A DNA stretch of 64,000 nucleotides from Enoplosus armatus. Lineage: Eukaryota > Chordata > Actinopteri > Centrarchiformes > Enoplosidae. Of the stretch, positions 7,931-57,223 are shown piece by piece. The notes beneath the pieces are model-generated. The model did not search any database. It was not told the origin of the DNA and saw only the letters and a program-made list of their open reading frames with translations. The first letter of the stretch is position 1; each line of letters starts with the position of its first letter. The DNA lies in contig NC_092196.1 in assembly GCF_043641665.1 (NCBI RefSeq), positions 13,878,692 through 13,942,691 of the forward strand, written 5' to 3'. The position numbers were made by a program, and so were the translations under genes.

Positions 7931-10721
7931 GTGAGACAATGACAGCTGTTAAGTATTGGCACAGTGAGTTAAAAGTTGTCATCGCTTTAATATGATGTAA
8001 TGAAGCATGTGTGTTTTAGTAAAACAAATATACTTTTCACTGTTTCAGTATTTGTGCAGCTGTACTGTATGACTTATGTTAACCAGTTTCGCTTGTCTTA
8101 TTTCTCTCTCAGATCGCACTGGGTGAATGCTACCGGGTGCGTTACCGAGGTGTCCACTCACGGGCTTTTGTGCGAAACTGCTATGTGTCGTGCCTGTACA
8201 AGGAGCTGGGCAGCTTCCTGTTTGGTTGCTGTGTGGGTCAGTCTCTCACCAATATGGCCAAGCTAAGTGTGGGACGCCTGCGACCCAACTTCATGTCTGT
8301 CTGTAACGTCACCTATGCGTCCATCAACTGCACTCCGGGCAGTTATGTGCCCGAGGTCGTCTGCAGGCAGGATAATCAGAAGATGGTGGAGGAAGCAAGG
8401 TGTGTAGTGTGTGTGCTCAGAAATGATTTGGTTTGTTTACTAAGGGTGGGGTATACTGTACAATAGCTTGACTCATCCAGTTAATGTGTAATCTTATTGA
8501 TATTACCCCCTCAGGAAGTCTTTTTTTTCCGGCCATGCTTCCTTCGCAATGTACACCATGCTCTATCTGGCGGTAAGTCACATCTACTTTTAAATACACA
8601 CACACACACACACATCTGGAATGTGACCTTCACATTCACCTGAGCTTGTGTTGTGTAATTACAGTATTTGGTACTGTTTTTACAAAGTTGGGGGAATATT
8701 ACAGCTCTCACTTTCGTTTCAGTTATTAGAGTCAACACCAATCCCTCGGGGCCAACAACACTGTGCACAACTTAACTTGATAAGCTAATTAAACATGCGC
8801 AAACACACACCAAGACATGTGCTGTTGAATATATTCACACTTCCTCATCGTGAGGGAGGAGATCTTTGAGAGCAGCAATTCTCCAAAGGCATCCCGCTTC
8901 AAACTGAAAGAGCTGGTGAGACAGAGAGACAGAGAGGAGGGGAGAGAGTGGGAGAGTAAGAGAATGAGGGAGAATGTTTTCCACAGGGAACATGAATAGA
9001 TGAAGAGACTACGCAGACAGAGGAGGCCTTGTTGTGGGTCTCATTTAGAGGAGGGGGTGGAGGGCTGAATATGCCTGCTGAGAGATCGACAGGCTTCTTT
9101 CAGCAAGAGACACCCTCTCAACCCCACCAGCCTCCCCCAAGCTCTCTCTTTCTCTCACACTGCTCTGCCCAGTAGGCATGGGTGCATTGTGGGAGAGAAA
9201 CGACAGTTAGAGGGAGACAAAAGCACATTATTAACCATAAAATGTCCACATTCCTCATGTATTCCCCGTCATTAACCCTTAGAATATAGTTTTAGGTGAC
9301 TTAAATATTTTATTGTTAATAAAGCTAAAATTAATGAAATGAGGATGTTGCTGTGCAAAATTCAAAGAGAGGAGAAAAGAAAATCACTGCCTCTCCTATT
9401 TGCATTTGTGTACTATAGAAGTCTAAATGAAAAGCAGCTCATCTCTGACCAGAAAGAGACAGACAAGGATGAGTAGGGGAGGACTGAATTAGAGGAATAA
9501 AAGGGTAAAGTACTGAAGGAAAGAAGTGGTCTGAGAAAAACAGTCTCTGTGTTTGTTACACCTGTTTTCTCTCCTCTCTGCATCTCACTCCATTGTTTCT
9601 CCACACACACACTGCAGGGAAGTTTGCTGCTTGCTAGTGTTTCAGCAGACTGTAGACAACCTGGAGAGATTGTGTCGTCAAACCTGTAGCTACATGCCAC
9701 CCGGACAGTGGCCAGCTGCTAGTGTTTAAGACAGGATCAATGACACCTGCTCTCAGTTGGGATAGGAAAGGGAGAGAAGGACCCGGTGAGGGTCGGCCTC
9801 ACTGCAGGAATGTAGGCCATGTGCTCCAGAGTTGTTGATGGGTCCAGACAGACCTCCAGCCACCTCATAAAGCAAGCCCTGCCTCTGCATCATGCTCACC
9901 CTGTGACCCCATTTTTACAGACACAAACATCCATTCTGTACTGCAGCACTGGTGCAGGAGATGAGGATGAACAAAAGGAGGAAATGGGGTTTAGATAGTG
10001 TTAATGGACTCGTGCCAAGCTTCTCTTTCCCCTCTGGGTTAGCAGACTGAGGAGATGGCCATGTTTCACTTAAAGGGCTCTGCCTGTGTTTATAGAACTT
10101 GAATTATAAGACATAATCATCAGTTTATGCTTGTGGGGCATACATTAACACACAGGCACCCACATGCATGTAATTACTTTTCTGTAGTAATTATAAAGTC
10201 AGTAACAAATTACAATATTTATCTTCTTTCCTGCAGTTCTACCTGCAGGCGCGGTTGTCGTGGCGAGGAGCTCGGCTGTTGCGCCCGCTAATACAGTTCC
10301 TCTTAGTGATGATCGCCATCTACACCGGCCTGAGCCGTATCTCTGACTACCGTCACCACCCTACTGACGTCCTCACAGGCTTCATCCAAGGAGGGCTCAC
10401 CGCATACTGGGTGGTATGTCGAAAATCACTGTTGTCTAAATAGCCTTGAATAACTGCTATCTCTGTCTTCACAGGATTTGCTTCTTAGCTTAAACAATAG
10501 GTTCCCTCCCTCATTTTCCTCACTCTGATCTCTCATGGTGTTTATAAACAGTGAATGATTGACAGCGTGTGTGGTCTGTGTATATTTCCTGACATGTTTT
10601 GTGTCTGTGCCTGCAGGCCTTCTACATTTCCTCCATGTTTAAGCCCTGCGCCCGTCCAGACCTGTCTCCCACTAGCATGTCTCTGGAGAGTCCACTGTCC
10701 AGCCAGCAAACTGTCTGTTAG
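7773..10721 (+). CDS. plpp3-like: Lipid phosphate phosphatase, PLPP3-like (exons 2-6; exon 1 outside window)
   Basis: Integral membrane ecto-phosphatase of the PAP2 superfamily. Family members dephosphorylate lysophosphatidic acid, phosphatidic acid, sphingosine-1-phosphate and ceramide-1-phosphate at the cell surface or in internal membranes. Five exons (7773-7930, 8113-8399, 8515-8572, 10237-10413, 10617-10721) join in frame to 260 residues plus a stop. All three catalytic signatures are intact: KLSVGRLRP (C1), SGH in FFSGHASF (C2) and [12 protein letters not shown] (C3). The extracellular loop between C1 and C2 has two N-glycosylation sequons (NVT, NCT). The core resembles PLPP3 more than PLPP1 or PLPP2 (for example [27 protein letters not shown]). 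However, the RGD of human PLPP3 is R-Q-D here and the C-tail ends in a free cysteine. A fish-specific fourth paralogue (ppap2d) is possible. Exon 1, with the first helix, is not in the window. Confidence 0.95.
8113..8399 (+). CDS. plpp3-like: PLPP-like exon 3 (catalytic motif C1)
   Basis: 95 codons plus two bases, from IALGECYRV to EEAR; acceptor tctctcag, donor gtgtgt. It holds membrane helices 2-3, the C1 motif K-x6-R-P (KLSVGRLRP), and the glycosylated loop [13 protein letters not shown]. The position of the human PLPP3 RGD motif reads CRQDNQK. Confidence 0.95.
8515..8572 (+). CDS. plpp3-like: PLPP-like exon 4 (catalytic motif C2)
   Basis: 58-bp exon encoding [19 protein letters not shown]. 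It carries the SGH catalytic signature, whose histidine participates in catalysis in this family. Acceptor ccctcag, donor gtaagt. Confidence 0.96.
8573..10236. other. Intron 4 of the PLPP-like gene
   Basis: 1.66 kb bounded by gtaagt and ttcctgcag. It contains an (AC)n run at 8595-8614 and purine-rich stretches, and no further coding signal was seen. Confidence 0.85.
8595..8614. repeat. (AC)10 microsatellite
   Basis: Uninterrupted dinucleotide repeat just inside intron 4 of the phosphatase gene. Confidence 0.9.
10237..10413 (+). CDS. plpp3-like: PLPP-like exon 5 (catalytic motif C3)
   Basis: 59 codons from FYLQARLSW to TAYWV. It holds membrane helices 4-6 and the C3 motif S-R-x5-H-x3-D ([12 protein letters not shown]), whose histidine is the nucleophile in this superfamily. 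Acceptor ttcctgcag, donor gtatgt. Confidence 0.96.
10617..10721 (+). CDS. plpp3-like: PLPP-like terminal coding exon 6
   Basis: 34 codons plus TAG: end of helix 6 (AFYISSMFK) and a short cytosolic tail, [18 protein letters not shown] followed by SSQQTVC. The Ser/Thr/Pro-rich tail ends in cysteine and differs from the human PLPP1-3 tails as I know them. Confidence 0.93.
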   Translation, partial: AFYISSMFKPCARPDLSPTSMSLESPLSSQQTVC

Positions 10722-12940: not shown

Positions 12941-14575
12941 TCAGCTGATGATGGAGCCCAGGAAACGGAAGGACTCCACAGTGTCCACTGGAGAGTCACA
13001 CAGGGTGATGGGGGCAGGTGGGGCTGCGCTCTTCCTGAAGTCTACAACCATCTCCACTGTCTTTGAAGCGTTAAGCTCCAGGTTGTTGTGGTTGCACCAG
13101 GTCACCAGATGGTCAATCTCCCACCTGTGGGCAGACTCATCCTCTCCAGAGATGAGTCCGATGAGGGTGGTGTCGTCCGCGAACTTCAGGAGCTTGACGG
13201 ACTGGTGACTGGAGGTGCAGCTGTTGGTGTACAGGGAGAAGAGTAGAGGAGAAAGAACGCAGCCTTGAGGGGAGCCGGTGCTGATCGTCCGCGAGTCTGA
13301 GACGTGTTTCCCCAGCTTCACGTGCTGCTTCCTGTCAGACAGGAAATCTGTGATCCACCTGCAGGTGGGGTCAGGCACGTTCAGCTGGGAGAGCTTGTCC
13401 TGAAGAAGAGCCGGAACGATCGTGTTGAAGGCAGAGCTGAAGTCCACAAACAGGATCCTGGCATAGGATCCTGCGGAGTCCAGGTGCTGGAGGATGAAGT
13501 GTAGAGCCAAGTTGACGGCGTCGTCTACAGACCTGTTAGCTCTGTAGGCGAACTGCAGGGGGTCCAGCAGAGGGTCTGTGATGGATTTGAGGTGGGACAG
13601 GACCAGGCGTTCAAATGATTTCATGACCACAGAGGTCAGGGCGACGGATCTGTAGTCATTTAATCCTGTGGGCCCTGTTTTTTTGGGGACGGGGATGATG
13701 GTGGAGGCCTTGAAGCAGGCTGGCACGTGGCATGTCTCCAGTGACGTGTTGAAGATGTCCGTGAACACCGGAGACAGCTGATCGGCGCAGCGCTTCAGGC
13801 AGGATGGGGAGATGGAGTCTGGTCCAGCAGCTTTTCGCGGGTTTTGTCTCTTGAAGAGTCTGTTCACATCTCTTTCAAGGACAGACAGAGGTGTCGATGC
13901 TGGAGGAGTGGGGGGTGCTGTGGGGGGCAGCTGTGGTGGTAAGAGGTGTGAGAGTTCAGCCCCAGGTGTGATGAGGGGGTTGGGGCTGTTGGGCTGGAGC
14001 TGGTGGGTGATGGTGTGGGGGATGGTGTCAGGACTGTCCCATTGTCTTTCAAAGCGACAGTAGAAGTCGTTGAGGCTGTTGGCGAGGCGTCGGTCGTTAG
14101 CAGAGTTGGGGGCTCTTGGCTTGTAGTTGGTGATCTGCCTGAGCCCCCTCCACACAGAAGCAGAGTCGTTGGAGGAGAACTGGTCTTGTAGGCTCTCTGA
14201 GTACAGTCGTTTAGCTTCCCTCACCGCCTTGCTAAACTTGTACTTGGCTTCCTTAAACTCTGCTCTGTTGCCACTCTTAAACACCTCTTCCTTTTCCAAC
14301 CTCAGCTGTCGCAGTCTTGCTGTGAACCAGGGTTTGTCGTTGTTGTAACTCACCCTGGTCCGAGTTGGTACACAGCAGTCCTCACAGAAGCTGATATATG
14401 AAGTCACAGCCTCTGTGTACTCATCCAGACTGTTGGTAGCAGTCCTGAAAACATCCCAGTCAGTACAGTCCAAACACGCCTTCAGGTCCTCTGCAGCTTC
14501 ACTGGTCCACTTCTTCGAAGTTCTCACAACAGGCTTAGAAAGTTTTAATTTCTGCCTCATGCGTACAAGACACAC
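12941..14575 (-). pseudogene. LINE reverse transcriptase ORF fragment
   Basis: Long open frame (544 codons). In order it has a coiled linker region rich in K/E, the finger motif NDYRSVALTSVVMKSFERL, motif A (LFVDFSSAFNTI), motif B (STGSPQGCVLSPLLF), the catalytic motif C (LLKFADDTTLIG) and motif E (FRFLGSIIS), where a stop arises from a frameshift. The catalytic aspartates remain, so loss of function comes from truncation and the frameshift rather than from active-site decay. Confidence 0.92.
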
Positions 14576-17500
14576 ACATACTTAATCTCAGTGCCATCTC
14601 GGTTGTCTCTGGCTACTCATAAGCAGAGTTAGTAAAGCAAGCCATTAAGCCATTTGTAAATCAGTCAACATACAGCCATAATTTCTTTTTTAGAAACAGG
14701 ATACCAGACTCTGTGAGGAGGCCTGGGCTGAAAGCGAACGTAAACACTGAAATGATAAGTGATTTAACCTCCTTGTGTTTGGAAGCTTCCACTCCAGTGC
14801 TCTCCTAGTTGCTTTCTTTACAACTCTCTCTCTCCCCTTCATACCCTTCCTCGCTTTGCCCCTTCCCTGCTCCCGGTTCTTTTTGAGTGCAGTGGAGCAT
14901 GATGGGCTGTTTCAGGGGGTCATGCTACCATGGAGATGCTTTAGCCAGATACAGGTTGGGGCGTCTGAGGCTTTTTCTTTCATTTATTTTTTTTCCCTCT
15001 CTCTCCGATCCACTTCCAGGCTGAGGGAGGAGAATAAAAAGCAGATCAGACGGAGAGGGCAAATGAGAGAGAGAAAGAGAGAAAGAGAAAGAGGGAGAAC
15101 TTCAGTAATGGGTTTGTGCATAACGCTGAGGTAAGGGGGACAGACGAGCAGGGAAAGTGGTCCAGTAATGAAGGGAAGGAGTAATGGAGCAGTTGGCAGA
15201 ACTGGGGCGGTAGATATGAGAGAGTGAGGGTGATGGGCGTGGGGTGTTGGGGTGGGAAGGAATGCGATTGTGGTTTTCAGGCCTGTTTTGTTTCATAATA
15301 CTGTAACTAAGGAGACACATTTCATTCCTGAGCAACATATATGCCTGTGCTTGTGTGACAGGTTCTTGTCTATCTGTGTCTGCCTCACTCCTTGTTATTG
15401 TCTCATGTTTAGGTGTGTGTGACTGAGCTGAGCGAGAGGATGGCTGCTCTACTGAACTGAGCTTACACACCCTGTCAAACATGACATCTCGTTTACACTG
15501 GGACCGGCGTCCTCCTCGCTAACCCCTTGGCCCTAATGGAAATGAATGCGGGGGTCGACAAGCAGAAGCACATTCTGTATGTTCAGATTACTGAGGTCCA
15601 GGCAGAAAGGCCTCACTATTTACACTGCTGTGACTGTACACATAGTAGGAACAGTAGCCGGGCACTGTGGTCATTTAGAATGGGGGCTATTTGAACTCTT
15701 ATCTCAACAGGTGAAAGCCATTACTGCCTGCACGCTTCACTGTGAAAGAAAACCCACTTTCTCCCTCTTTCTCATACTTTGGGGAATTCCTTGATAAGAT
15801 TATGATTTTTGTGAAATTGGACAGGTGCAAAAATAGCAGGGCGGATGCTAGAGAGCACTGATCCAAATCAACACAACGATAAGGGTGCTGCGGAAGGCAC
15901 GTAGCTCACCTGCATATCCCTCCATGTCTGAGGAAAGGACACTTGTATCATACATGTTGTTTTTTTTTTGTCTGACATTGATAACATCTTCAAGGCATGT
16001 GCAGCTTAGCCAAACTCTGCCCCTGTTTGAAGTGATGAAATAGGCCTTATGATGAAGATGTAAAACATACCTCTTCTCATGCAGAGGCCTCACAAGCCTA
16101 TCAACCTATCTTTGTTTACTACCAAGTGAAAGCTGCTTAATGAATTGATTCAACTGTAAAGAAAGAAAGAAATTTCCTTGCAAATGAATTTTTGTTAAGT
16201 AAGAGCTTTTCGCTGTGGGTCTCCAAGGCATTACAGACGTAGTCTCTGGAACTCTGCTGGCCTCTTATCCAGCTGTAGTCCAATTCTTAATAGAATTAAA
16301 AAGGATTAATGGGCTCTTTAGTATGCTCAAGTTCAGGCTTGCTCCCCCAGCCTCACTGCTGTGCATATTTCTAAATCTCCCATAGTAATGAAAGTCAGTG
16401 AATGCACTAGCTGCAGCCATTAGAACTGCAAGTGGGCACATTGTGTCCTGATATGAGTCTGTGAAAGGCATTAGTTTGCATGTTCCTAGTTAGATAAATC
16501 TTCTCGCTTCGCCTTTCTTCTCTCTCTGCTCTTTGCGGATTAGGATTAACCAAGCCGTGTTGGCTCATTGAATAAGCAAAGAGATCAACCCCAAAAAAAC
16601 TGACTGACGCGAACTACGGGATGACAGCAGGGCCACATTCGTTGCCAAATGTGGAAACCTTGTTGTCTGTTTGTGTAGGTGTACACACTACACAACAAGT
16701 AAATGCACACCTAATTCATCAGTCCAGCACATATGTACACATCAGATTGTACACATACTATCTGATGAGGACAGTGTCATTGTGCTATCTGATGAGGATT
16801 GCATCGCTTACATACCGTGCTAGTCAGCTGAGACTGCACAGCATTTTTGAAGTATATTTTTGAAGCTTATATGAATCGCTAATGATTTGTAGAGAGACAG
16901 TCAGTCACTGTGTGAGCATGTGTGAGAGTGTGATGAAATACCTCCCTATGTATTTCTGTTACAAGATTTACAGTAGCATCAATTAATAGAAACAAGATGC
17001 ACACAATTTTCTAAGAACTATTTCCTGTCAGCCTTTTAAAAGAACATTCAAACATTTATGACTGCTCAGGGCTGCACATTTCCTTAGGTAACAAATTGTT
17101 TAAATTATATTTTTAGGTTTGTTGAAAAGAAACCATGCCTCAACATACCCATAAGCCACTATTTACCATATAATAGGTCATATTGTTGTCTTTGTAAGGG
17201 TGAGGAGGTGTTACGAAAGTACAATGCAATGGAAAAGGTTACCTGATAAGACTTGGCGCCACAATGTGTGGTGTGTTTATTTTAGTGTCAAGGTGTTTTA
17301 GGGTAGGGTGACCTTAGTTACCTGCAGCTTCTCCTTAGAGGTGTTTTCAGCCAATTATCCAGCTCTTCCTTTCTCCCTGTCACCTGTGAAAAGAAGTAAA
17401 CACATTTAAATAGTCTTTCCACACACGAGGATAAAACCGACAGGTTAAGATTTGACTGAGCACAGCAAGCAAATTAGACTTTGACATAACATTCTTCAAC

Positions 17501-20500
17501 AAAACAAGCTTATCTACCAGCACCCAGACAAGACACGTTGTCGATAGAGATACCAAACCACTTTGTTTATATTGTGCGGTCTGAAGAATGAGAGATGTTT
17601 AGTGTGTGTGTGTTCATGTCGGTTCCATAACTTGCAGGCTGCTGAGGGCAGACTGGAATGCAAAAACAAGATCATGGGAATAAAAACAATAGTCAGGATC
17701 CATGAGGTGTCGGTGACGACTGCAATGGAAAGGTGGGAGGATGATCCTGGGTTCCAAGGTCAACAAGCTAAGCCTCCTGCAACACACATCCACATGCAGA
17801 GGTAATGTAATAGTGACATGACACTCAGCCCATGTTAATACAAGCCGGGGAATCATACAAACAGCCCATTCATCACTTAAGGAAACTACAGTATATTACT
17901 CAAGTGAACCTCATAAAGTCAGATGTATACAACTGACCTCAGTGCTCAGTCTTTATCTTGAAGGAGATGATCTCACAAGCAATATGTCTTGAGAAAACAT
18001 CTCTTCTGTGTATAAAACACTTAGTGTATGCCTCATTTGTGTATTAGCATCTGTGTGTATGTTTAATCTGTGCCTACTGGACTGCATGTTTACATGTTAA
18101 AATGTGTATGAGCATGCGCATACCTGTATACACATCTGTGTGTGTGTTTCAGAGGTTGTTTAGGTCATAAATAAAAAAACATTATATTCTCACTTAGTGT
18201 ATACACCACTGTACACTCCCCCACACACAATCATACTCTCCTACATATATCATCTCACCCTCTATTGTAACACTGGTCTGTATGAGAAATATTGATGTTG
18301 TTCAGAGTATTATTGTGTGCGTGAGTGGGATCGCATATGTTAAAGAAGAATAGTAAAGAAAGAGAAAGAATGATAGTGTTTGTGAGGAAGAGAATAGGGG
18401 TGTGTGGACAGTATGGTAACGTATAAAGTCTCACAGAAGAGTAAGAAGAAATAACACAATCTTACAATAACAATACGTACTGAAAAACAATACAACGCAC
18501 ATCTCAGGGGTTTTGTTACTAGAGTCTCACTTGGTCTGGTATGAGTGATAGAACTTTAGATAGATATTGCTGAATAATAACCAGTTTGTTTCCTGACTTT
18601 ATGACTCTTCTCTACATGTGATACTTTTTCACTGCATTGTATCATGTCACAGATAAACATTTCAATGGTTTCATCACAAACATAAAACAGATAGTACAGG
18701 GAAATTCAATGTGCCATTATTCTGTAACTGCCACTTGTGGTAAAAGTAGCCACTGTTCAGAAAAAGTCACATAGTGTCAGTTTTGGGACAACTTTAAAAT
18801 TCAGCTTGTTTTACTAAAATTATCCACCATTTTTCTCTTTTCGATTATTTACCCTGTCTCCTTCTTGGTGTATATGGCTGTTGGCCTTGAGCATGTAAGA
18901 GCTTATAGTGCAGCACTGTGTGTGGGACAGTAAAGTGGTGTATGTGCCAGACCGTGATGCAGAGTGTGTGCGTGATAGTGAGGATATTGCTATCAGTGCA
19001 GTGGTGCTCCTAATTACAGCCCTCCCCAGGAAGCAGCTGGAATAACATGGAGAATTAAAAAACCTGGGGTGCTGAGGTCACACTTACAACACTGCAGTAC
19101 ATTAGAGAGCCAATGAAACGTGCTTGTTGGAGCCCAGGAAACTGTTAAATACAGTGCAGGCCTCTCTCTTTCTGCTGCTGTGTGTGTCTATATACTTTCA
19201 TCTTCGCTTGTCTGCATGTAAGTGTGATGATAGCGTAGTGCCAACAGTTTAATGAGCATGCACACAGCAGACACCCGACAAAATTCCTGTAATTCCTAGT
19301 TATGAATGAGGTGAACTAGTGAGTAATTTGTGTGTGTAATGCTGATCCACTAACATCACTTGCCAAGGAGAGCTTGTGTAATTGGTAGATAGAGGGCAGT
19401 AAGTACAGTAAAGTAACTAGCAGATATTAAGTTTAATAACAGTAATAACTCATTATCTAATTGGTTGCCCATGCTCGTTTTTCCTTTTCTTCTTTTATTA
19501 TTTTTCTCTTAGCATCTTAAAATAAATTGGGTATTGGGCAACAGGTGGACTACAACAGCTTTTACTATGCATTGTTTACAGTCATTTGGTGTAATTGTTG
19601 AACAATGTCAGTTCGACAGTCACGGCTTCTGGCTACCATTGTTATTAGTGTTATCCTTGGGGGGTGAGTTATGGCTGCCTTGGTCCTGTAATTATGTTTC
19701 TCCTTCCCACTGGTCGTGGTGACAGATGACGAAGGCCGTGGAAAACAGTGAAGGAAGCCTCCTGCTGGAACGTTAGGAATGATGGCAGTGACAGGGGTGA
19801 CAGGGAGACAATCCCAGACCTGGAACCACAAAGGTATCTACCTGTCTAGACACTGAACAGCTGTCTTTGGCTGGAACTCGCACACTGCAAAAAAGGGGAC
19901 ACAAGTCAGAAACCTAAAAATTTAAAAAAGAATGCATTTAAACAACTTAACTTCTTTGCAGTGAAAAATCAGCTTTATTAATGAACGTTATTGAATTGAA
20001 CACCATTATCTTGGTACTACTTATCGGTAGAGTGGTCAGACTTACATCATGTTTGATATTTTGACTTGTCACAGCAGGAAAATCACAGATGGAACAAATA
20101 ACAGTCTCCACTCAGTTGTGTCCCTGTAAGGTGCCAGGGTCCTTGAAGTGGAACACCTAAATGGAACACAGCCATTGTAATGCTCTTCATGCTATTACAT
20201 GCCGAAATGTCAGAAAATGATCTATTGGCACATTGTTCCATTGTTGCTGTTTTAATTAAGTTTTTTAAGTGTGTAAAAATGTACACTTCTTGCAGTGTGC
20301 TGCTCTCCTGCTCTGTCCTCCATTCCCCTCTCTCCAATTTTTCAGGTGAGTGCCTGATCGCCTCACTGATCCGCAGCACAGCCAAACACAAGGCTTTGTT
20401 TATTTAACAATAGGGCTCAGCCAAATGTGAACAGCTATATAAGGGCTGCCTTAACAAAACATGACAGTGATAGACATACTGACTTAACTGACATTTTACA

Positions 20501-20776
20501 GCGCTGCAGCAGTTCCCCTTTTACAAATCCCTGTCCCCTAAAACTCCAGTCATGTCACTCATGGCTTTAGGTGAGACAGCCTCGGATTCTGCTGGGAGAG
20601 ACAGAAAGCAGTATGCACAGAGGAGTAGCTCATAAACAAAATTAACCAAAAGGGTAATTTCATGTGAACGTCTTGCATACTTTCTCATGAGTCCACTTAG
20701 TGTGCAGTGCATGCCAGTGCTTGCACATGTACTTGTTTGTGTGTCAAAACAAATGGTGGTGTGTGCGAGTTGAGTT

Positions 20777-20780
<4 letters not shown>

Positions 20781-20844
<64 letters not shown>
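20781..20844. repeat. (TG)n microsatellite, about 64 bp
   Basis: Alternating TG with one TATG interruption. Such tracts can adopt Z-DNA and are length-polymorphic. Confidence 0.95.
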
Positions 20845-20845
<1 letters not shown>

Positions 20846-23519
20846 ATGCTGTATGTATATTTATGTGTGAGGCTACAGGAATAACAGAGGGCACGGTATA
20901 AAAATCCTGATTGTTTCTGAGGGATTATCCTTCACAATGTAGGGCTTTATCAGAGGGCCTGGACTGCTGTAACAAGACACGCTCGCCCTGGGTTCACCCA
21001 GCCAAATACTGAGACTTACGCCAGCAACGAATCACAGGGGGGAAAGAAATGGAGAGGGTAAAGAAAAGACACACAGAGGGGAAAACGATGGCGAAGGACA
21101 GGAAAGAGCAGAGAGAGGGAGGAAGAGGTGACGGTAAGAAAAGTGGAGTGAGAGGGAATGTGGGAGAGTGAAATGCACAGAGAAAGGCAGAAGTTGAAGT
21201 TGAAGTTTAACTGGAGGCCATGCTTCAAACAGAGAGGTTTGTTTTCTGACAGAGATCCCTCTCAGGAGATTGAGCTGGAAAACAGATTAATAGAGGCTGT
21301 CCAAGTTGTTCTCTGATATTGCACAACATGTGCCTCAGCACCATATGAATAAGAGCTGCTGTGCATTATACTGTTAAGTGCTTTGACGTGGCTCTTTGTA
21401 TGTTATAGCCAATTGTATGTGATACAGCCTCACTGAGCCTTTATATTCAAACACTGATGGGCCCTCAGGCAGGGGCTGGTCAGATCTTTCATGTCTGGCT
21501 CTGTGGAGGAGAGGTGTTTTTGATTGGATTGTTTTATTTGCTTCCTTTTATAAGACTTTCTCAGCTGAATCAGGTTGCTGTGCACAGGCTAACCAAGCTC
21601 TGTAAAGGGGAGCTGTGGTTTTGGAAATGAGGGGGTGAGTTGGCCGCTATGGAAGGGGCTTTAATATGTGTGTAGGAGTAGATGGAGAGGGGGGTGTACA
21701 TGGTATTGTGTGAGGCCCTGTGACTTCATATATTCATATATTCCCATGGCACCTCCACCCCTAGCACTCCTGAAGTATATTCTTTCAGACTTGCTAATTT
21801 ACTTTTATTAGCTATTCAATTTTTTGGCATGTAAGTGCCATAATGTAACCACATAGCATGATTGAATGTTTATGTACTGCAGACCACACGGACACATCGC
21901 TATCCAGTGGGTAAGCTGGTTGAATGCCCAGGTGAATGTGATTACTGTGTGCATATTTCTCTGTATGTCAGTGTGTGTTGCTGTTGGAGGGTTTCCTGTG
22001 CTGGCAGCGTGTAGGTGTCCCTTTGTGATATTCAACCTGTGCAAGTGGGGGTTTCAGGCTTCATACTGAGCCGACTGGACTGACCAAAGCGTCTGTAACA
22101 GTCCCAGCACGATTTTCATTCTCTAAACTCACCTCTCCTTTGGTCTTGCACTGAGAATGAGGATTATGCTTAATACCATTTTTCTTGAAAGCACCCCTTG
22201 TGACTCAATGCTTTTCCTAGCCTCGGGTCAATCACTTCTAAGGTTGGGGTTGAGGGGAAAATGCCACGTAAAGGCCTGTGATGTTGCTCTGTACTTGAAA
22301 AACTGGAAAATGTGTTATCTACAGAGAAAGTCAGGGTGTGAACATGATACTGTTTTCTTAAAAGGAGTCACTCCTGGCCTGTGTATACTGTTTTGGTTGT
22401 GGCCGACTTTCTACCGGGTGTATTTTGAAACCGTTGTGGAGCTACGCGAACTCAAGCCAAGCAGGGTACTGAGCAGCCAGCACTATTGTTTCAGAGCTAC
22501 TCAGGATTCTCAGGGTGTTGCTTTGCCTCAGCTTTGACTCAACAACTCACACGCCCTGAATGGTGCACCCAGTTTTTGTGTTAAACTTGGGTTCAAAATA
22601 GTGAACTGTACAGCTGTTATGGGGGTTAATTTACCCCTATCCTTCTTTCCTTCCTTCCAGAGCCAAAACTCTGTACCTTTCAAACTCTAAGAGTACTACC
22701 CTCATCCACATGGACAGAGAATGAGGGATTGAGGGGGTGGCAGTGAGACGGGAAGAGAGTTGTTTATCTCTCATCGTCACTCTCATGAACGGAACAAGAA
22801 GGGAAGAGTGGAGGCAGATGGGGAGGGGACTCAAAAGCAGCAGAATTGTAATTATTTACCCTAAAAGTCCCGTTTAGACTGTTTGGAATTCACTCCGTCT
22901 TTCAGACTTCAGAACTAGATGCATAGTGTTTGTTGGAGTGTGGGCCGCGGACATGCGTGTTCATAGTTTTGTGTGTGTGTTTTCAGCCTGTCCTGCGTCA
23001 TCTTTGCTCTCCTCTGTTTACATAGGGGCTGTGTGGATATGCAGAGGGATGGTAAGATATCCAAGCCTCCCACTGTCACTTGATGTCTATGGAAAATGGA
23101 TCACTTGCTCCCTCATTCATGCCTGTTGTGATGCTGTCACCTTTATTCAGTAAGGGTCTCGCCAAGGAGGGATGAAGCAATCAAGAATGATGCAATGTTG
23201 AACTGGTTAGTCACACCAAATTGGCTAATATGTAAATCTGCTTGGTCTCAATGTCATTTCATCTATTTCTAAGCCAATATGATAGTTATGTTTAAGGTGG
23301 AAACCTTTCGCTCGACTACGCTGGTGGACTATTGCAAAGGGCAAAGGAGAAGCAGAGAGGGACAGAGAGATGGAGTTGGGGAAGTAGATGGAGTTGAAGA
23401 GATAGAGAGGGGCCCATATTGAGTGACACAGACTATGGTCTGTGTTTTCTCGGTGGACCAGAGAAGATGCAGTGTAAATGAAGCGTGCTGCACCATGGCG
23501 GCTTCTGCTTTATCCTCGC

Positions 23520-23521
<2 letters not shown>

Positions 23522-23559
<38 letters not shown>
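23522..23559. repeat. (TG)19 microsatellite
   Basis: Uninterrupted TG dinucleotides read directly. Confidence 0.95.
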
Positions 23560-23561
<2 letters not shown>

Positions 23562-24312
23562 AAAGAGAAATGACAGAGGCCTCTTTGAGTACTCGGTGCC
23601 CTCTGTTCTCCCTCTGTTCTCTCATGGTTGGTAATATATCGGGAGGATTGCCATCCTCTGTCCACGACCCATCTCCAAAGATAACAGGCGTATATACACA
23701 ACACAAATGTGAACATGGATAAATACAAATGCATCCACCTGAGCAGTAAAAAAATCCTGCCGCAGAACAGAATCCATAAAGGACCACAGGATGGGCTTAT
23801 CTAATAACACATCTGATGTGTGTATTTTTCAGAGATCATGTTGAAACCACAGCACTTAGATAGATAGATATTAAGATCTGAGACTAAGTCTCTTCACAGT
23901 CAGTCAGGGCGGTCAGTTCAATGTGTGTTTCTGACCTGTAGGACGAGGGCCTCCCCCGGTGTTCAATGTGTGAACTACAAATCCAAAAGTAGTTCAACCA
24001 ATATTTTAACCAACATGGTTAAATACTTACGTAATTAATTCATAACTCAGGATAATTTGGCACGAAACCCTGGCACTGTGGCATATAGCTTGCATGAAGT
24101 CTCATCTTATTTTAAAAGCAAGACATAAAAGAAAGTGTAAAATAACAGCACATGGTTTCCCACACTGTATACGTTGATTATCATTCTAATCATTATTATA
24201 TTATATATTATCATTATTATATCATATCATTATTATAGCCCAGACGACGACAAGTATCCTTGCACTACCAGATAAATCTGGTCCAATCAGGATCCAACTT
24301 TCTTTTATGCCT

Positions 24313-24347
24313 CACTTCCTGCTTCAGCTACATTGTGCTACTTCCTC
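24313..24347 (+). promoter_or_regulatory. Paired ETS/PU.1-like sites upstream of the unassigned receptor gene
   Basis: CACTTCCTGC (24313-24322) is the reverse complement of an ETS consensus, and ACTTCCTC (24340-24347) is the exact reverse complement of the PU.1 core GAGGAAGT. They lie 51-85 bp before the first ATG and no TATA box is evident. That arrangement is common in myeloid and lymphoid promoters. The transcription start is unknown. Confidence 0.4.
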
Positions 24348-24397
24348 ATTGTTCAGTTGACATTGTTGAGCGTCTTTACCTCTTTTCCTTCGACAAA

Positions 24398-24461
24398 ATG
24401 ACCTTTCAAATGTATCCACTTTTTACCATGACGATACTACTCTGTGTGGGAAAAGCACTAG
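24398..24461 (+). CDS. Unassigned receptor exon 1 (signal peptide)
   Basis: Encodes the hydrophobic leader MTFQMYPLFTMTILLCVGKA plus L (residues 1-21). Donor gtaaga, phase 1, which is typical of leader exons. Confidence 0.75.
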
Positions 24462-27400
24462 GTAAGAGATGGAGCTTTTTGCATATGTATGTCTCTCCTG
24501 TTTTTGTTGTTTTTAGGCTTGTTCTCAACTTTTCCGGTAGCTGTGAGCTTCAGTAACGATACACTGTACAACTTCGTTGTCTCACAGGGTGCTCTCAGAA
24601 AAACACTTCCTGCAAAGACATTAAGACTGCTGAAGGATTCAAGTACTTTCATGGAGGTCCTGAGGGAAGTGAGATTTACGTGTATTATAATAAGGTATTT
24701 TTATTTGCTTATTAACTCTGTAGTAGTACATAGTTTTGTTTTATAAAGTAAGTTTTACAAAGGTTTTACAATGTGGATTAGAAAAGGGGAAGGAGGGAAA
24801 GGGAAAGTTTGTCACTGAGGTTGACAAATAACCCAAATGTTTTTTGCTCTGACTGCAGTCAATCAAAGTACATTTTTATTACTTTCCCAACAGACCTTGA
24901 TTGCTCATGCTGTGCTTGCCAGTCAGTCTTTTAAATGTTTGCCTGAAGTGATGAGCATGAACAACCATTCGGTCATCTTAAGAGACTGCCAGGACCTGCA
25001 AGTAAAATACTATGTTCGTGAAGTGAGTTTCCCTCTAATTTAATTTGTACTTATATGAATTGAATTCACAAAAGTCATATTGATTTGTTTTGTTTGTTTG
25101 TAAATGTGAAATACGTACTATACACTGTCACAATATAGACGTTGATTTTGCTTTTTAGGGAGAGCGCCATGTAAAAGAGATCTGCTGGAATTATAAAACT
25201 ACTGGTAAGGAAGTGAGATGTTATGAATACCTGATTTACTACTGAATCTTATCTTATGTCGCCGATCATAAAGACATCATCATATATATCATATATAAAT
25301 TATATACACAATTATCCCACCTCTTTACTTTAAGCAGAGAATCAGGATCCCAAAGATTTACCAACACCATGGCGCTACAACAGTGAGTACAGTTACTCTA
25401 ATGCCTCACAATACTATTAACAATATTATGAATACATTTTCTATAAAATACCTCAAATTAATATTTGATGATAACATGTTTGCATTGTGTTTTCGTCCAG
25501 TGTTTGTGCTATATTGTGTGATAGCGCTGATTGTGATCATTGGGATCATTGGGATCATTGGGATGCTTTGTCTTTACCTGCCTTGGAAAAGGGAATTGAG
25601 GTGAGTTCTATTCTATTTGCAATAACAATCGACTGTTAATGCCATTTACACGTTTACCTACACAGTGTCATGCATGGATTAAGAAATGTTTGTTTGTTGT
25701 TTGTCTCATGTGCCAGGAAGCAGCACAACACAGCTGAAGTTTCGCAGCTCAGTTTTTTAAGATACCTGCAGACTTCCTCTTGTCTCAGAAAGGTTATTTC
25801 CCAGCCAGAGACAGGACAGGCAGAAGAACCTAGGTCAGTCTTTCATGTTCATTTCAGCTAGCACTGTTCATTTGTCTGTCAATAAGTTTCAGTAAATTCT
25901 CATTGACCTCTGACTTTTTACATGAAGAAAAGTTAGTAAAAACGATGCTCTAGAGAAAAAATGAATTGGAAACTTGAAAATTACTTTATTGACATCCTCA
26001 TCTTTCCTTCATCATTTTAGGCTGAGTGATAAACCATCTCCCACTGGTTCACAAGATGATATTGAGGAAGATGACACACTTGAAAGTGTGCACGTTCACA
26101 GGTTAGACTGCCATGTTAACAATATCCACTCTGACCTCTTGTTAGCCTGCTTGTCAAAATTGTCAAAGTGTGTTTTTTATTAACAATTGGAGGTCTAGAC
26201 TGTGATCTGCTAAAAGCTACCTTTGTCTCCATAGCATTGATCTTAAGGCTGATGGCGAGGCTCCTCAATCCCTCAGTCTGCACTGCAACTTGAGCAAGGA
26301 GGGAATCCAGCTGTCTAAAAAGTGAGAAGGAGAATTGTTTACTTTTGCTTGTGCCTGTAGCCTTTTTTCCTTTTAAGATTGAGGTGAATTGTCCCTTTAA
26401 CTGGGCAGACAGTGAATGAGATTTCTCAGAAGAGACTCAGTGCCATTCTTATCTAGTATTTGTTTTGTAGTGGACACACAAGTACCCCTGACGCTAACAG
26501 TGCCTATGATCATCGAGCCATGCACAGGTAAGCTTTTGGATTGTCAGTGTGTTTATTATCAATAATTTTTATTATTTATTCAGTCATCACTATCATCTAA
26601 AAACTATTGTATATGTCTGCCTCAGGAACTTGGGGGATGATCCACGAGGAGTGATTGACAACAAAGGAAAAGACATTGTTAAGTAAGTATTTAGTGTAAT
26701 AATTATTAATGATTATTATTACAGTACATACAATTTAATAATTGTATACAATTTAATAATTTTTGTATTATATTTATGGCACATTTATGAAGCATGTGAG
26801 GTAAGAATGTGTCCTATTGAAGATGGTTATGTACGTATTTTATATATTAGCCTCCAAGAGGTTAATTACTTCTTATTAGTAGTTCAGTATGAAACATTTA
26901 TTATTTATTGTGTTAAATGTAATTATTTCACAGCCACCCACAGTTTATGTTGGCTTCTGTTTCGGATGTTTGCAAAAAATGTAAATAAAGTCCACAGTGA
27001 TAAAATGTAATGAAAGCTAGAAAGACGAAATGCAAATTACCAATTTGCGGATGAGATGAAGATAAACAGAAAAAAACTAAATATGGAGTTATTTAAACAG
27101 CCTGCCAACATGCCCTAACACAAAAAACTATTATTTCCGAAATGTTTGAGTTGAAATGTAAACAAAACCAGTACAAACAAATCATCCTGGTAAGGCAATG
27201 AGACGACTATAGATTGATCTAAAATCAAATCAAATTTAACTTTAATTTTGGCAAATGTGCAAAAAATGCAGAGAAGCATCCAGCCTGATCGTCTTGTGAA
27301 AAGACCGGAAGTACGCACTCTGGGTTTTTCTGTGTCCATCTGTTAACTGATGATGGCTGTGAATTCTCCTCCAGGATCTTGGAAGTGCGCGGTGGACGGA

Positions 27401-28003
27401 CTCTTGGTGATGGCGGTCCTGAAGATCATGAGATTGAAGGACAACCTCTGCTGTGAGACTGCCTCTTGCTCTCTGTCACTCTGCACTCAAAACTGTGACC
27501 AAAGAGAAATCGCTGTCGCTTTCCAATTTCCAGTCTCCTTCATACCTTTTCTCATTTTGCTTATTGCTGCTGTGTGGACAGCTGTCAGGGGTAACTTTAT
27601 GAACTGCTCCCCCCACCCCCATCCCAGATCTGTAGGGCCAATCTGAACTTCAGAACTTGTCTCTGACATCTGCTCGGAAAGTGAGCATAAACCGAGCTTT
27701 GCTGTTACTGTGCAGAGGCTCATGTCTCTATTTCTTATTGTTTCTGTCTCCAGATCTGCCATCCAACATTTTGACATGAAAGGTGAAGCCGCAGCTTTGG
27801 TGAACAGGCGCGGCCAAGACCCAGACCCGGTCAGCAGGGGCTCTACTGCACCAGTAAGTAGAAAGCTTTCAATATATGATTCATTATCTTTACTTACTTA
27901 CATACTTTTTTTCTGTGCTCTTTTTTTCATGTGTTTGATTTAGCAATTGTTTTGTTTGCTGCAGGACACTGACGTGGAGTCAACACCCAACATGAAGAAC
28001 TAG
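24398..28003 (+). CDS. Unassigned single-pass type I membrane protein, 14 exons, 368 aa
   Basis: I do not recognise the family. Fourteen exons (listed separately) join with matching phases into 1107 nt ending in TAG. The protein has a signal peptide (1-21), an ectodomain of about 109 residues with five cysteines (23, 30, 72, 89, 109) and three N-glycosylation sequons (N27, N56, N81), a short stalk, one membrane helix (about 132-157) followed by a WKRELRK stop-transfer segment, and a 210-residue acidic, Ser-rich cytosolic tail with few tyrosines and no ITIM/ITAM. The ectodomain module (exons 2-4) is flanked by phase-1 introns, as for Ig and sushi modules. Its tail NNHSVILRDCQDLQVKYYV vaguely recalls Ig strands E-F, but the usual Ig cysteine/tryptophan pattern is absent. 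An acidic dileucine signal (EGQPLL) suggests endocytosis. The start is the ATG giving a signal peptide, with A at -3; an in-frame ATG at 24260 would bury it. The gene model is mine; the function is unknown. Confidence 0.75.
24588..24694 (+). CDS. Unassigned receptor exon 2
   Basis: Residues 22-57: GCSQKNTSCKDIKTAEG to IYVYYNK. Acceptor tctcacag, donor gtattt (weaker). It contains C23, C30 and the N27 sequon; the N56 sequon is completed only by the next exon. Confidence 0.72.
24894..25022 (+). CDS. Unassigned receptor exon 3
   Basis: Residues 58-100: TLIAHAVLASQSFKCLPE to VKYYVRE. Acceptor actttcccaacag, donor gtgagt, phase 0 on both sides. It contains C72, C89 and the N81 sequon. Confidence 0.75.
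25159..25204 (+). CDS. Unassigned receptor exon 4
   Basis: Residues 101-115, GERHVKEICWNYKTT, ending the extracellular module with C109 and W110. Acceptor tttgctttttag, donor gtaagg, phase 0 to 1. Confidence 0.73.
25338..25382 (+). CDS. Unassigned receptor exon 5 (stalk)
   Basis: Residues 116-130, ENQDPKDLPTPWRYN: a polar, proline-containing membrane-proximal stalk. The acceptor is an AAGCAG tandem, so a form with one extra alanine is possible. Donor gtgagt. Confidence 0.7.
25501..25600 (+). CDS. Unassigned receptor exon 6 (transmembrane)
   Basis: Residues 131-163. It contains the helix VLYCVIALIVIIGIIGIIG, followed by MLCLYLPWKREL, with basic residues on the cytosolic side. Three perfect copies of a 9-bp unit (25536-25562) encode the I-I-G repeat. 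C154 near the inner leaflet is a possible palmitoylation site. Phase 1 to 2. Confidence 0.8.
25717..25833 (+). CDS. Unassigned receptor exon 7
   Basis: Residues 164-202, KQHNTAEVSQLSFLRYLQ to AEEP. Cytosolic; phase 2 at both ends (117 bp). Confidence 0.72.
26021..26101 (+). CDS. Unassigned receptor exon 8 (acidic)
   Basis: Residues 203-229 with the acidic stretch QDDIEEDDTLE preceded by SPTGS, resembling casein-kinase-2 style sites (inference). Phase 2-2, 81 bp; acceptor tcattttag. Confidence 0.72.
26235..26321 (+). CDS. Unassigned receptor exon 9
   Basis: Residues 230-258, IDLKADGEAPQSLSLHC to IQLSK. Phase 2-2, 87 bp; acceptor ctccatag, donor gtgaga. Confidence 0.7.
26471..26527 (+). CDS. 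Unassigned receptor exon 10
   Basis: Residues 259-277, GHTSTPDANSAYDHRAMH. Phase 2-2, 57 bp; acceptor tgttttgtag, donor gtaagc. Y271 is one of very few cytosolic tyrosines. Confidence 0.7.
26626..26682 (+). CDS. Unassigned receptor exon 11
   Basis: Residues 278-296, NLGDDPRGVIDNKGKDIV. Phase 2-2, also 57 bp; acceptor tctgcctcag, donor gtaagt. Confidence 0.7.
26683..27374. other. Intron 11 of the unassigned receptor gene
   Basis: 692 bp, the longest intron of this gene, AT-rich, with no coding signal seen. Confidence 0.7.
27375..27452 (+). CDS. Unassigned receptor exon 12
   Basis: Residues 297-322, ILEVRGGRTLGDGG to EIEGQPL. Acceptor tcctccag; donor CT|gtgaga. If this donor is not used, the frame reads one more Leu and stops at TGA, giving an alternative 323-residue protein that still ends in the dileucine motif. 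Confidence 0.68.
27453..27753. other. Intron 12 of the unassigned receptor gene (retainable)
   Basis: 301 bp between gtgaga and tctccag. Retention would simply end the protein after EGQPLL. Confidence 0.6.
27754..27853 (+). CDS. Unassigned receptor exon 13
   Basis: Residues 323-356, SAIQHFDMKGEAAALVNRRG to SRGSTAP. Acceptor gtctccag, donor gtaagt, phase 2 to 0. Frame continuity with exon 12 and the terminal exon supports it. Confidence 0.68.
27965..28003 (+). CDS. Unassigned receptor exon 14 (terminal)
   Basis: Residues 357-368, DTDVESTPNMKN, then TAG. Acceptor gtttgctgcag. Confidence 0.65.
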   Translation, partial: DTDVESTPNMKN

Positions 28004-28025
28004 TATACATAAATACTGATTGTTG

Positions 28026-28080
<55 letters not shown>
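28026..28080. repeat. (TAA)n microsatellite, about 18 units
   Basis: Uninterrupted trinucleotide repeat 23 bp after the predicted stop codon of the unassigned receptor, so it lies in its 3' UTR. Confidence 0.95.
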
Positions 28081-28081
<1 letters not shown>

Positions 28082-29064
28082 TTATATTATATATACAACA
28101 TAAAGTATTCTCACAGAGTAGGTGGTACATTTACTGGCAGATCCTTTGGGATCAAGTCCAGCACTTTTCATTAATCATTTTCATCCCACGATGTTTTTCT
28201 CTCTTGAAGAGCATGCTGACAGATATATTTTTACAAGACCTATGTGCAGAAGTTTATATTATTACAACTTCTTAAGTTTTTCTTCATAGAAATATTTGAC
28301 AATCCTGGTGGAAACTGGTGTTGACCATGTGTTACTTTCAGCCTATTCATTGATTTACGATCAGTCAATCACATTGATCAGGTAACATGTTCATTTTGGT
28401 CAACATTTAGATGAACAGTAGTTATTACATTTTGCTAAACTATTAAATTACCTGACACTAATGGCAGTATAGGTTGATTGATGGTCTCATCAAAAAACAA
28501 CAACAATGATAATATGAAGAGCTTGGCTTGACCAAAGGATGGGTGGACCAAAAACATGTCAGAAAAAGTACCACAAACGCAGCTGTGAGACAACTTAATA
28601 TAAATGTGCCTATATGACAGGCATAATGTGTAGCATAAATACATATTTCGAAACTAAACAAATGTATCATATAAAATGTTATATTATAGTTTATTATATC
28701 AATTATGCCTCATTAGAATGTATGATGTTAATGAGATAATGCATAATAGAATACATAATGTTTTTTTCCCTTTTCTACATGTAATTTCTTATTTATCCAA
28801 TCAGTTATAAGTAAGCCTGCCTTTACTCCATTATTGCTGCATAATCTAGCAACTTGTTTATTTTTACCTCCTGAATCACAACACACTTTGCTTTTCATGC
28901 CGCATTTGTGAATTTGGAGGTTATATTATTGTGATTCTGTGTTTTTTTTTTCTTGCTTATGTACTCAGTTACATTGCTTTTGCTTATTAGTTGATAAATT
29001 TAAATATAGTAATAATGAGGTATAGGTATATTCAAAAATGATGATTTCTTGTCCTGAATTATGA

Positions 29065-29070
29065 AATAAA
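29065..29070 (+). terminator. Candidate poly(A) signal AATAAA
   Basis: Sense-strand AATAAA about 1.06 kb after the TAG of the unassigned receptor, followed by TTTACTCC and T-rich sequence. Confidence 0.5.
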
Positions 29071-31065
29071 TGGTTTACTCCACCCTGGATTTCACTGCCT
29101 GCTCATTTTTACCTTTGTTTCTTAACTATTTAAGGCAACACTGCAGACCTGGAGTATCAATCTTATTCATTTATACCATGAGGGGGCAGTAAATAGTCAT
29201 AAGTCCTACAACACTGAGGTACATAGGCAACATAACTACACCTCAATCAATGCGTATTTATTCCAGATCGCAATAGCTTCAAAATTTGTGAATGTTATTT
29301 TCACATAATGTGTTTTTATGATCAACCACTGTGGGTGGGGCCAAAAATAATTTTGTTTAAATAAATCAATTGAAATAAATCAATCAAATAAATCAAGGCT
29401 CCATTATAGTACTGTTTACCATAGTGTGGTTCTTTTATGCAATCAGTGTCTGTGTTATATACGTATGTTACAATACTTAAAAGATTTGTTTCCCCCTTGG
29501 CTTGATGTGTCATAGTAATTACAGTTACAGACAAACACACAGAAGTTCAGGCTGAATTTAATACATCTCTTTTCTCTATCTCTTGGGATCTGTTGCTGTG
29601 AGTCTTAGTCTTAGTTCATGTCTGTTTCTATTTTAAGCTTCTATAAATGTGCAATGACCTTGAAAAAGAAACCCTTTTTTCCTCTCAGATGGACCAAGTA
29701 CTGGGAAGCGAGTGTGTCAGGGTTAGAGGCTTTGTTGCTCATGTTTGGTATGTCAGCATGTGAAAGTGTTACTGTACCATTGGTGAAAAGAGGGTGATTG
29801 AATGGTCAAGGCCTCAGAGCCTCCCCTCTCAGGGAGTTTCACTGAGGGGACACAAGCGAGATGGGAGCAGGGCAGGAGCTGGGCAGATGGGTGGATGGGT
29901 AGGGGGTGAGTCATCACATGTAATCACACATGTACAGCGTACAGTATGACATGGAAAAAAGAGGTACATGGGAGAGGCTGTAATTATGGATGAATATTCT
30001 ATGCTCTGATGCACATAATAATTAGATATCGGCTAATTAGCTACCAATCACACTCCACTGTTAACGGTGTTATGAGCAGTCAAGGAAACAAAACTCAGTG
30101 GGAGATGAACACTGATCACACCACATCGGGGGTAAGAGGGCTTAAGGGAAGCTAGATGGTCTGCAATAACCCAGACACTTAGGTGCGTTATCCCTAACTG
30201 ATCTCTAGTTGATCACAATGTTTATGCTTACTCTGGAGTGTACTAAAGGTTGCTTACTAGTGTGTGCTGTTGTGGCTTAACAGACAGCTCCAAGCAAACA
30301 GTGTTGCATTCAAAAGTCAGTGAGCTGTATTCATACGGCAGTTATTAAAAGAGTACATCGGGGATCACACCACACCGTATGATTAATTAACCTTGACTGA
30401 TGCTTTGTAAAGCTGAATCCAGCTGAGCAAGTATGCCCACAGGTCTGCATGTACATACAGATACATATGAGATGGTTGAAAGAGTCACTGTAGATGGACT
30501 CGGTAATACTGACTTAGGGTCGCTGTAGTGAAACAAAGCCTTGCTTTTTTTCCCAAATTAGTATGGGACCAGTCCTCTCCTCTTTCCCAGTGCGTGAAGC
30601 TCACGCTGTCACTAAAAGTGCTGGGGCTCCAGGTTTTGTCTCTTAAACTGACGGCTTGCTTTTTTCTGCATCTCTTTGATCACTGGACAGAGACCAGTGT
30701 TTGACAAAATCATCATCCCAACCAGCAGGTCAAATCTGCATATGCATACAGTGTGTGGTTCAAAGGGGAGCTGACTCAGGAAGGGGCTGGGTTGCTTGGC
30801 TTCAGTCCCGGCTTCCCATGGTGCAAAGATGAGCAGCACAATGCTGTCGTAACCTGCAGAACAGCCCATGAATAAAGCATAACCTCCGTATTATTGCTTA
30901 AAGACGTCTTTTCATTTCCAGTTTGAATCACGAGGTATATTGAAGAGTATATGCATATGGTACGGCAAAGGATTAATAATTTCTGTGTGCTGTTACGCTT
31001 TTATCACACTGGCCCACACAAAGCACACAAGCAATTATGCTGTACAACAGCGTACAACATCACAC

Positions 31066-36707: not shown

Positions 36708-57223
<20,516 letters not shown>

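Follow-up and report, generated by a model that had tools for sequence, protein, structure and literature searches.

A 14-exon gene of Enoplosus armatus that probably encodes a single-pass cell-surface protein of an orphan percomorph family

Introduction

The 64,000-nucleotide (nt) window of Enoplosus armatus DNA analysed here (contig NC_092196.1 of assembly GCF_043641665.1, positions 13,878,692 to 13,942,691 of the forward strand; positions below are counted from the first letter of this whole stretch) contains on its plus strand, at 24398-28003, a gene of 14 exons. Its product is probably a type I protein of the cell surface that crosses the membrane once, carries a single V-type immunoglobulin (Ig)-like domain and belongs to an orphan family of percomorph fishes. 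The family itself is already known as a set of unnamed fish proteins in the databases; what is new here is a fuller gene model for Enoplosus, which adds a leader and a predicted Ig-like domain to the public protein of this species (P0001; labels of this form denote database proteins).

Many farmed marine species belong to the spiny-rayed fishes, whose lineage-specific receptors are in our judgement poorly mapped. The family is found in several percomorph branches (three by taxonomy), and it has neither a name nor an assigned function; a full-length model that includes the leader and the Ig-like domain makes it testable. The case also illustrates how reading raw sequence exon by exon can bring to light a receptor whose public model leaves out everything ahead of the membrane helix.

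Gene structure and product

A preliminary description of this DNA had proposed a complete gene whose product is a type I membrane protein without an assigned family; it noted GT/AG sites and matching phase at every junction of the 14 exons and a total of 369 codons including the stop. Rebuilding the exons from the DNA bears this out, as does the homology described below: the joined coding sequence is 1107 nt long, which is 369 codons with the stop, and all 13 introns (98-692 nt) have GT/AG borders. The ATG at 24398 is the first in-frame ATG downstream of an in-frame stop at 24236.

Exon 1 (24398-24461; all exons lie on the plus strand) carries the start codon and the predicted leader, residues 1-22. 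Exons 2-4 (24588-25204) together form a single phase 1-1 module of 94 residues, the predicted V-type Ig-like domain: exon 2 (24588-24694) encodes the first part of the ectodomain with Cys23 and Cys30, exon 3 (24894-25022) its middle with Cys72 and Cys89, and exon 4 (25159-25204) its end with Cys109. Exons 2 and 3 give matches in the search of the species' own genome and, like exon 4 and the stalk exon 5 (25338-25382), are supported by the aligned relatives. Exon 6 (25501-25600), assigned by hydropathy and by identity to P0001, holds the single hydrophobic helix (residues ~131-157), which is predicted to span the membrane, and a basic stop-transfer segment. There are three N-glycosylation sequons outside the membrane, at 27, 56 and 81. 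The leader, the ectodomain with glycosylation sites and five cysteines, and the one membrane helix of the preliminary description are all recovered. The long acidic tail is there too, with 208 residues, and is only mildly acidic (net charge -12, isoelectric point 5.1).

The tail begins with exons 7 (25717-25833), 8 (26021-26101), 9 (26235-26321) and 10 (26471-26527), each supported by identity to P0001 and by the aligned relatives, and continues with exon 11 (26626-26682), which contains a conserved DDPGG stretch that reads DDPRG here, and exon 12 (27375-27452), at the end of which lies the acidic dileucine EGQPLL (coding positions 27436-27452, the last codon being finished by exon 13). All six of these exons, 7-12, have phase 2 at both ends, so any one of them can be skipped with the frame intact. 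Exon 13 (27754-27853) encodes conserved C-terminal tail, again on the evidence of P0001 and the aligned relatives, and exon 14 (27965-28003), the best-conserved exon with a mean identity of 0.85, encodes the C-terminal DTDVEST and the stop. Directly past the stop codon, the presumed 3' untranslated region has a simple (TAA)n repeat at ~28027-28081 (plus strand). A candidate polyadenylation signal AATAAA at 29065-29070 (plus strand) is a consensus match, one of several such words.

Relatives and taxonomic spread

A first protein database search returned 22 proteins (E values from 7e-155 to 3.5e-26), and a second, whose query was an alignment of 17 of them, returned 33 proteins, the weakest at E 3.8e-33. 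In a third search the query comprised 13 members, headed by a divergent one, and the eight proteins that it found were all known already. Every named relative is listed as an "uncharacterized" or "hypothetical" fish protein, and P0020 and P0035 are unnamed. The earlier statement that the product matches no named family stands; the databases do hold an unnamed fish family, and in shape, predicted kin are Ig-like. Homology to P0002, of the percomorph LOC122868653 family, covers 100% of the query at 54% identity (E 2.7e-102). P0001, the public Enoplosus armatus protein of 238 residues, is letter-for-letter identical to exons 6-14; it begins at Met131, within the membrane-helix exon, and is without exons 1-5, which encode the leader and the ectodomain.

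Exon-by-exon conservation was evaluated in an alignment of 31 relatives drawn from 39 proteins; two of the rows are second isoforms (P0004 and P0012), and the proteins left out were P0001 together with seven fragmentary or partial models, P0020, P0021, P0027, P0031, P0036, P0038 and P0039. The alignment runs the full length of the product, and a counterpart of every one of the 14 exons is present in 27-31 of the 31 relatives (exon 1 in 30, exons 2-4 in all 31, exon 5 in 30), which agrees with the earlier judgement that the gene structure is very unlikely by chance. The leader, helix and ectodomain change fast and the end of the tail is conserved: mean identity is 0.28 in the leader (30 rows), rises to 0.36 in the helix and 0.51 in the ectodomain, and reaches 0.66 over the last 54 residues. 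When 38 relatives were compared with the region by tblastn every exon was matched, exon 2 by 35 of them; support was weakest for exon 1 (two relatives), exon 6 (four) and exon 5 (five), so exon 1 and the borders of exons 5-6 rest more on the alignment and the splice sites. Two relatives, P0035 (326 residues on a contig of 1114 nt) and P0020 (210 residues on 1366 nt), are open across many exons on contigs too short for introns, and are presumably assembled spliced transcripts of other fishes.

By taxonomy Enoplosus belongs to Eupercaria, Fundulus to Ovalentaria and Thunnus to Pelagiaria, all within Percomorphaceae; Lates, Xiphias, Channa, Monopterus and the remaining named species with relatives we take to be percomorphs as well. 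Isoforms aside, the lists of relatives contain one gene per species. The Enoplosus genome has a single match locus: both ectodomain matches fall in the gene, as do five of the six matches of a Sander relative, the sixth (on C10) having E 0.8 and three stops, and searches with these two queries revealed no paralogue. The third protein search, a method that needs shared five-residue words and that scored 7995 candidates, returned no named fish outside the percomorphs. To the reach of this short-word search, the family is an orphan, single-copy one whose members known to date all come from percomorph fishes. At the level of titles and listings, a literature search, including one by LOC numbers, found no paper naming it.

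The relatives' proteins also produce 16 matches beyond the modelled exons at 20001-30000, none of which lies inside a plus-strand intron at E < 1. The two best are both upstream of the gene. One, at 22985-23092 (plus strand), about 1.3 kilobases (kb) away, corresponds to residues 33-68 of Epinephelus coioides P0036 (56%, E 3e-7) and could be a further exon ahead of exon 1 or else conserved non-coding DNA that the P0036 model has taken in. The other, at 20297-20368 (plus strand), aligns at 67% (E 3e-4) with residues 35-57 of P0013 from Sander vitreus, a protein with an odd N-terminus to which these residues belong, and is perhaps conserved upstream DNA absorbed into that gene model.

Ectodomain cysteines

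The Enoplosus ectodomain contains exactly five cysteines, at 23, 30, 72, 89 and 109, and the family consensus contains six, at 23, 30, 45, 89, 96 and 109, a variable trait that does not define membership. Enoplosus departs from the consensus in having Gly at position 45 and Tyr at 96 and in having gained Cys72 (codon 24936-24938, plus strand), whose column holds a cysteine in one of the 31 relatives (P0025). The odd number remarked on in the preliminary description is accordingly the sum of four consensus cysteines and one addition, the result of two losses and one gain, and the most plausible reading of Cys72 is as an additional cysteine without a partner.

The cysteine pattern across the family suggests the disulfide pairs 23-109, 30-89 and 45-96. 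Cys30 is retained in 31 of the 31 relatives, Cys89 in 30, and Cys23 and Cys109 in 28 each, the latter two being missing together in the same three (P0028, P0029 and P0034). Xiphias P0021 is also without Cys109, its model starting too late to show Cys23; these four fishes presumably form one branch, Carangaria, in which case the loss may be a single event. Cys96 is lost in three relatives (two genes, one of them as two isoforms), always together with Cys45, which is lost in ten; that the other seven have lost Cys45 alone weakens the case for a 45-96 pair.

Predicted fold of the ectodomain

The fold was assessed on predicted structures of two relatives, P0005 and P0007, made from differently headed but overlapping alignments. 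Both models place a beta domain in the ectodomain, and the structural matches listed for them by Foldseek and VIA-align are nearly all of immunoglobulin type, with TIGIT high among the Foldseek matches. The P0005 model has the nine-strand A-B-C-C'-C''-D-E-F-G sandwich; that of P0007 has a strand B of just two residues. Judged by their titles, the 50 matches in each list include no FnIII or sushi protein, and the gene and the P0005 model have one domain only, as compared with the paired FnIII domains of class I/II cytokine receptors. In a library of viral structures the top matches that bear names are glycoproteins of herpesviruses and adenoviruses, several of them Ig-named, and a poxvirus protein, which we take to reflect a shared fold and not kinship. 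On these models, the ectodomain is predicted to be a V-type Ig-like domain. In Anoplopoma fimbria P0024 the whole ectodomain is present twice in tandem, which fits the 1-1 exon phase of the module.

Some observations weigh against this prediction. The Z and TM-scores of the structural matches are modest; none of seven ectodomains matched a Pfam Ig profile (V-set or kin), in a search where the HMMER filters drop most rows above 0.1; and the alignment, inspected by eye, has neither a conserved strand-C tryptophan nor the tyrosine corner D-x-[GA]-x-Y-x-C, the predicted F strand reading D-L-x-V-x-C. Cys45 and Cys96 could lie near the place of the canonical B-F disulfide, and both are lost in Enoplosus.

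Searches gave no convincing match in Pfam or among PDB sequences. Between them, 23 members matched 24 Pfam families, none of which is an Ig family, and Pfam offers no convincing named family for the product; weak rows, among them OSTbeta, DUF3112, Adeno_E3_CR2 and Insulin_TMD, seem to be matches to the membrane helix. A first PDB sequence search found nothing and a second just two membrane-segment rows, with E 2 and 6.9.

Cytoplasmic tail

In the relatives' models the tail is predicted to be largely disordered. Of 36 database rows, 27 have in their tail an acidic dileucine of the form [DE]xxxL[LM], which is EGQPLL in Enoplosus; the motif is absent from P0002, P0014, P0019, P0032, P0034 and the truncated P0027, P0031, P0038 and P0039. 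Exon 12, which carries it, has no counterpart in four of the 31 aligned rows (by eye P0002, P0004, P0019 and P0034). Few stretches of the protein are as well conserved as the C-terminal DTDVES, and Enoplosus is without a segment that several relatives carry between exons 7 and 8.

No tyrosine of the Enoplosus tail fits an immunoreceptor tyrosine-based inhibitory or switch motif (ITIM, [SIVL]xYxx[IVL]; ITSM, TxYxx[VI]). Among the relatives, scanned from residue 126 of each row, such motifs occur in four of 36 rows (P0013, P0024, P0026 and P0034), at differing places.

Genomic neighbourhood

The gene sits between a PLPP-type phosphatase gene, presumably PLPP2-like, whose PAP2 match (E 0.0076) is below the family cut-off, and a latrophilin (adgrl-type) gene on the minus strand. 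The latter extends over ~36000-57000 of the window and 9068-9325 of locus L010; its olfactomedin domain (E 3.7e-31) lies in the frame 55054-55392, and L010 contains, by eye, a lectin-domain-like exon.

About 34 kb upstream of the gene, the minus-strand frame L009:239-649 (C30:13868930-13869340) scores 24.1 bits against PF00229, with a cut-off of 23, and looks like the last exon of a tumour necrosis factor (TNF)-family ligand gene. A candidate membrane-anchor exon was noted by eye at L009:1899-2105 (minus strand); it has no Pfam match. Human 19p13.3 carries TNFSF14 (PMC7674686), and together with the TNF-family frame this is a hint, no more than a hint, that the gene may lie in a block rich in immune genes.

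Elsewhere in the window, at 12941-14581 on the minus strand, an open frame of 546 residues contains a reverse transcriptase domain (RVT_1, E 2.9e-32) and is by its look a long interspersed nuclear element (LINE)-type retrotransposon. A scan of the window against Rfam at gathering scores gave no match.

Proposed mechanism and alternative explanations

For a cell-surface protein of this kind, analogy with the V domains of CD2, CEACAM and TIGIT type suggests that the exposed sheet of the V-type domain would bind a ligand, either on another cell or in solution. The long disordered tail would then act as a platform for docking and trafficking. The acidic dileucine of exon 12 could recruit clathrin adaptors, as a result of which the receptor would be internalised and routed to endosomes, and the absence of the exon 12 segment from some relatives' proteins would give forms with and without this signal. 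Output would probably not pass through ITIM-type tyrosine motifs, and in Enoplosus the unpaired Cys72 could join two chains covalently. Expression on immune cells is a guess, prompted by the fast evolution and the fold. A still more specific proposal is that of a family of immune receptors confined to percomorphs, with a cysteine scaffold of its own in a V-type Ig fold, a non-tyrosine tail of cassette exons, internalisation toggled by exon 12 splicing, and a ligand system not known in mammals; we regard it as speculative and, taken whole, unlikely.

The alternative that survives best is an adhesion molecule of CD2 or CEACAM kind, mediating homophilic or heterophilic contact between cells, whose tail is an inner tether and does not signal. 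The V domains of CEACAM1, CD2, CD48 and CEACAM15 are among the best structural matches; likeness of fold is, however, no proof of function, and antibodies, CD80 and CD47 lie within 1 Z unit of them; this is the less probable interpretation.

A type I glycoprotein of lysosomes or endosomes, or a receptor that sorts cargo, addressed chiefly by the dileucine and binding lumenal cargo through its Ig-like domain, would account for the frequency of the acidic dileucine, the long tail and the three sequons. Lysosomal proteins usually have the dileucine near the membrane, however, and EGQPLL lies ~160 residues away from it in a skippable exon; with a quarter of the database rows (9/36) also lacking the signal, an intracellular route seems unlikely.

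It is equally doubtful that the gene is a divergent, unrecognised orthologue of a known V-type receptor (CD28H/TMIGD2, CD2/SLAM or TIGIT-like). The single V-type domain with a tail, the TNF-family frame upstream and the presence of TNFSF14 on human 19p13.3 (PMC7674686) would suit such an origin, but there is no sequence match to any named family, and the EIP motif and the YxNx tail motif of CD28H, as given in PMC11599192, are not in the sequence.

The predictor might instead have given an Ig-like look to an ectodomain that is in fact a small beta domain rich in cystines, which would explain the missing Ig sequence marks, the candidate non-canonical disulfides and the modest scores. The agreement of two models from overlapping, differently headed alignments, and the mostly Ig-type matches listed for them, make this improbable. 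Finally, chance open frames or a pseudogene, for which only the omission of exons 1-5 from P0001 could be adduced, are rejected, since database relatives extend along the whole product, all exons are conserved and there is neither a stop nor a frameshift.

Comparison with known systems

The CD2/SLAM group (CD2, CD48, CD244, NTB-A) consists of proteins with a pair of V and C2 domains, many of which have tyrosine switch motifs. The present protein has no sequence match to them; it has one domain and no tyrosine switch motif, and the two domains of P0024 are copies of the same domain, not a V plus C2 pair. CEACAM N domains and the CD2 V domain are without the canonical B-F disulfide; as compared with the N domains of CEACAM1 and CEACAM15, the six-cysteine set is found only on the side of the fish family, and the tails are unrelated.

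TIGIT and CD28H/TMIGD2 likewise combine a single V domain, one membrane helix and a cytoplasmic tail, and the tail of TIGIT carries an ITIM. That of CD28H has a YxNx motif, and the CD28 family has an EIP/PPP motif in the region of complementarity-determining region 3 (CDR3), as described in PMC11599192. The synteny markers of CD28H are fsd1/stap2. Neither the ITIM nor YxNx is in the Enoplosus tail, and, by eye against the motifs of that source, the sequence has neither the CDR3-region motif nor a Y-based tail motif.

The closest system is the unnamed percomorph family itself, represented by LOC122868653 (Siniperca chuatsi), LOC116059450 (Sander lucioperca), LOC127357108 (Dicentrarchus labrax) and LOC105931992 (Fundulus heteroclitus). 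Enoplosus differs from it in the loss of Cys45 and Cys96, in the presence of Cys72 and in the lack of the segment between exons 7 and 8, and it shares with the family the leader, the cysteine-bearing ectodomain, the one helix and the long tail, which in most members ends near (D)TDVES.

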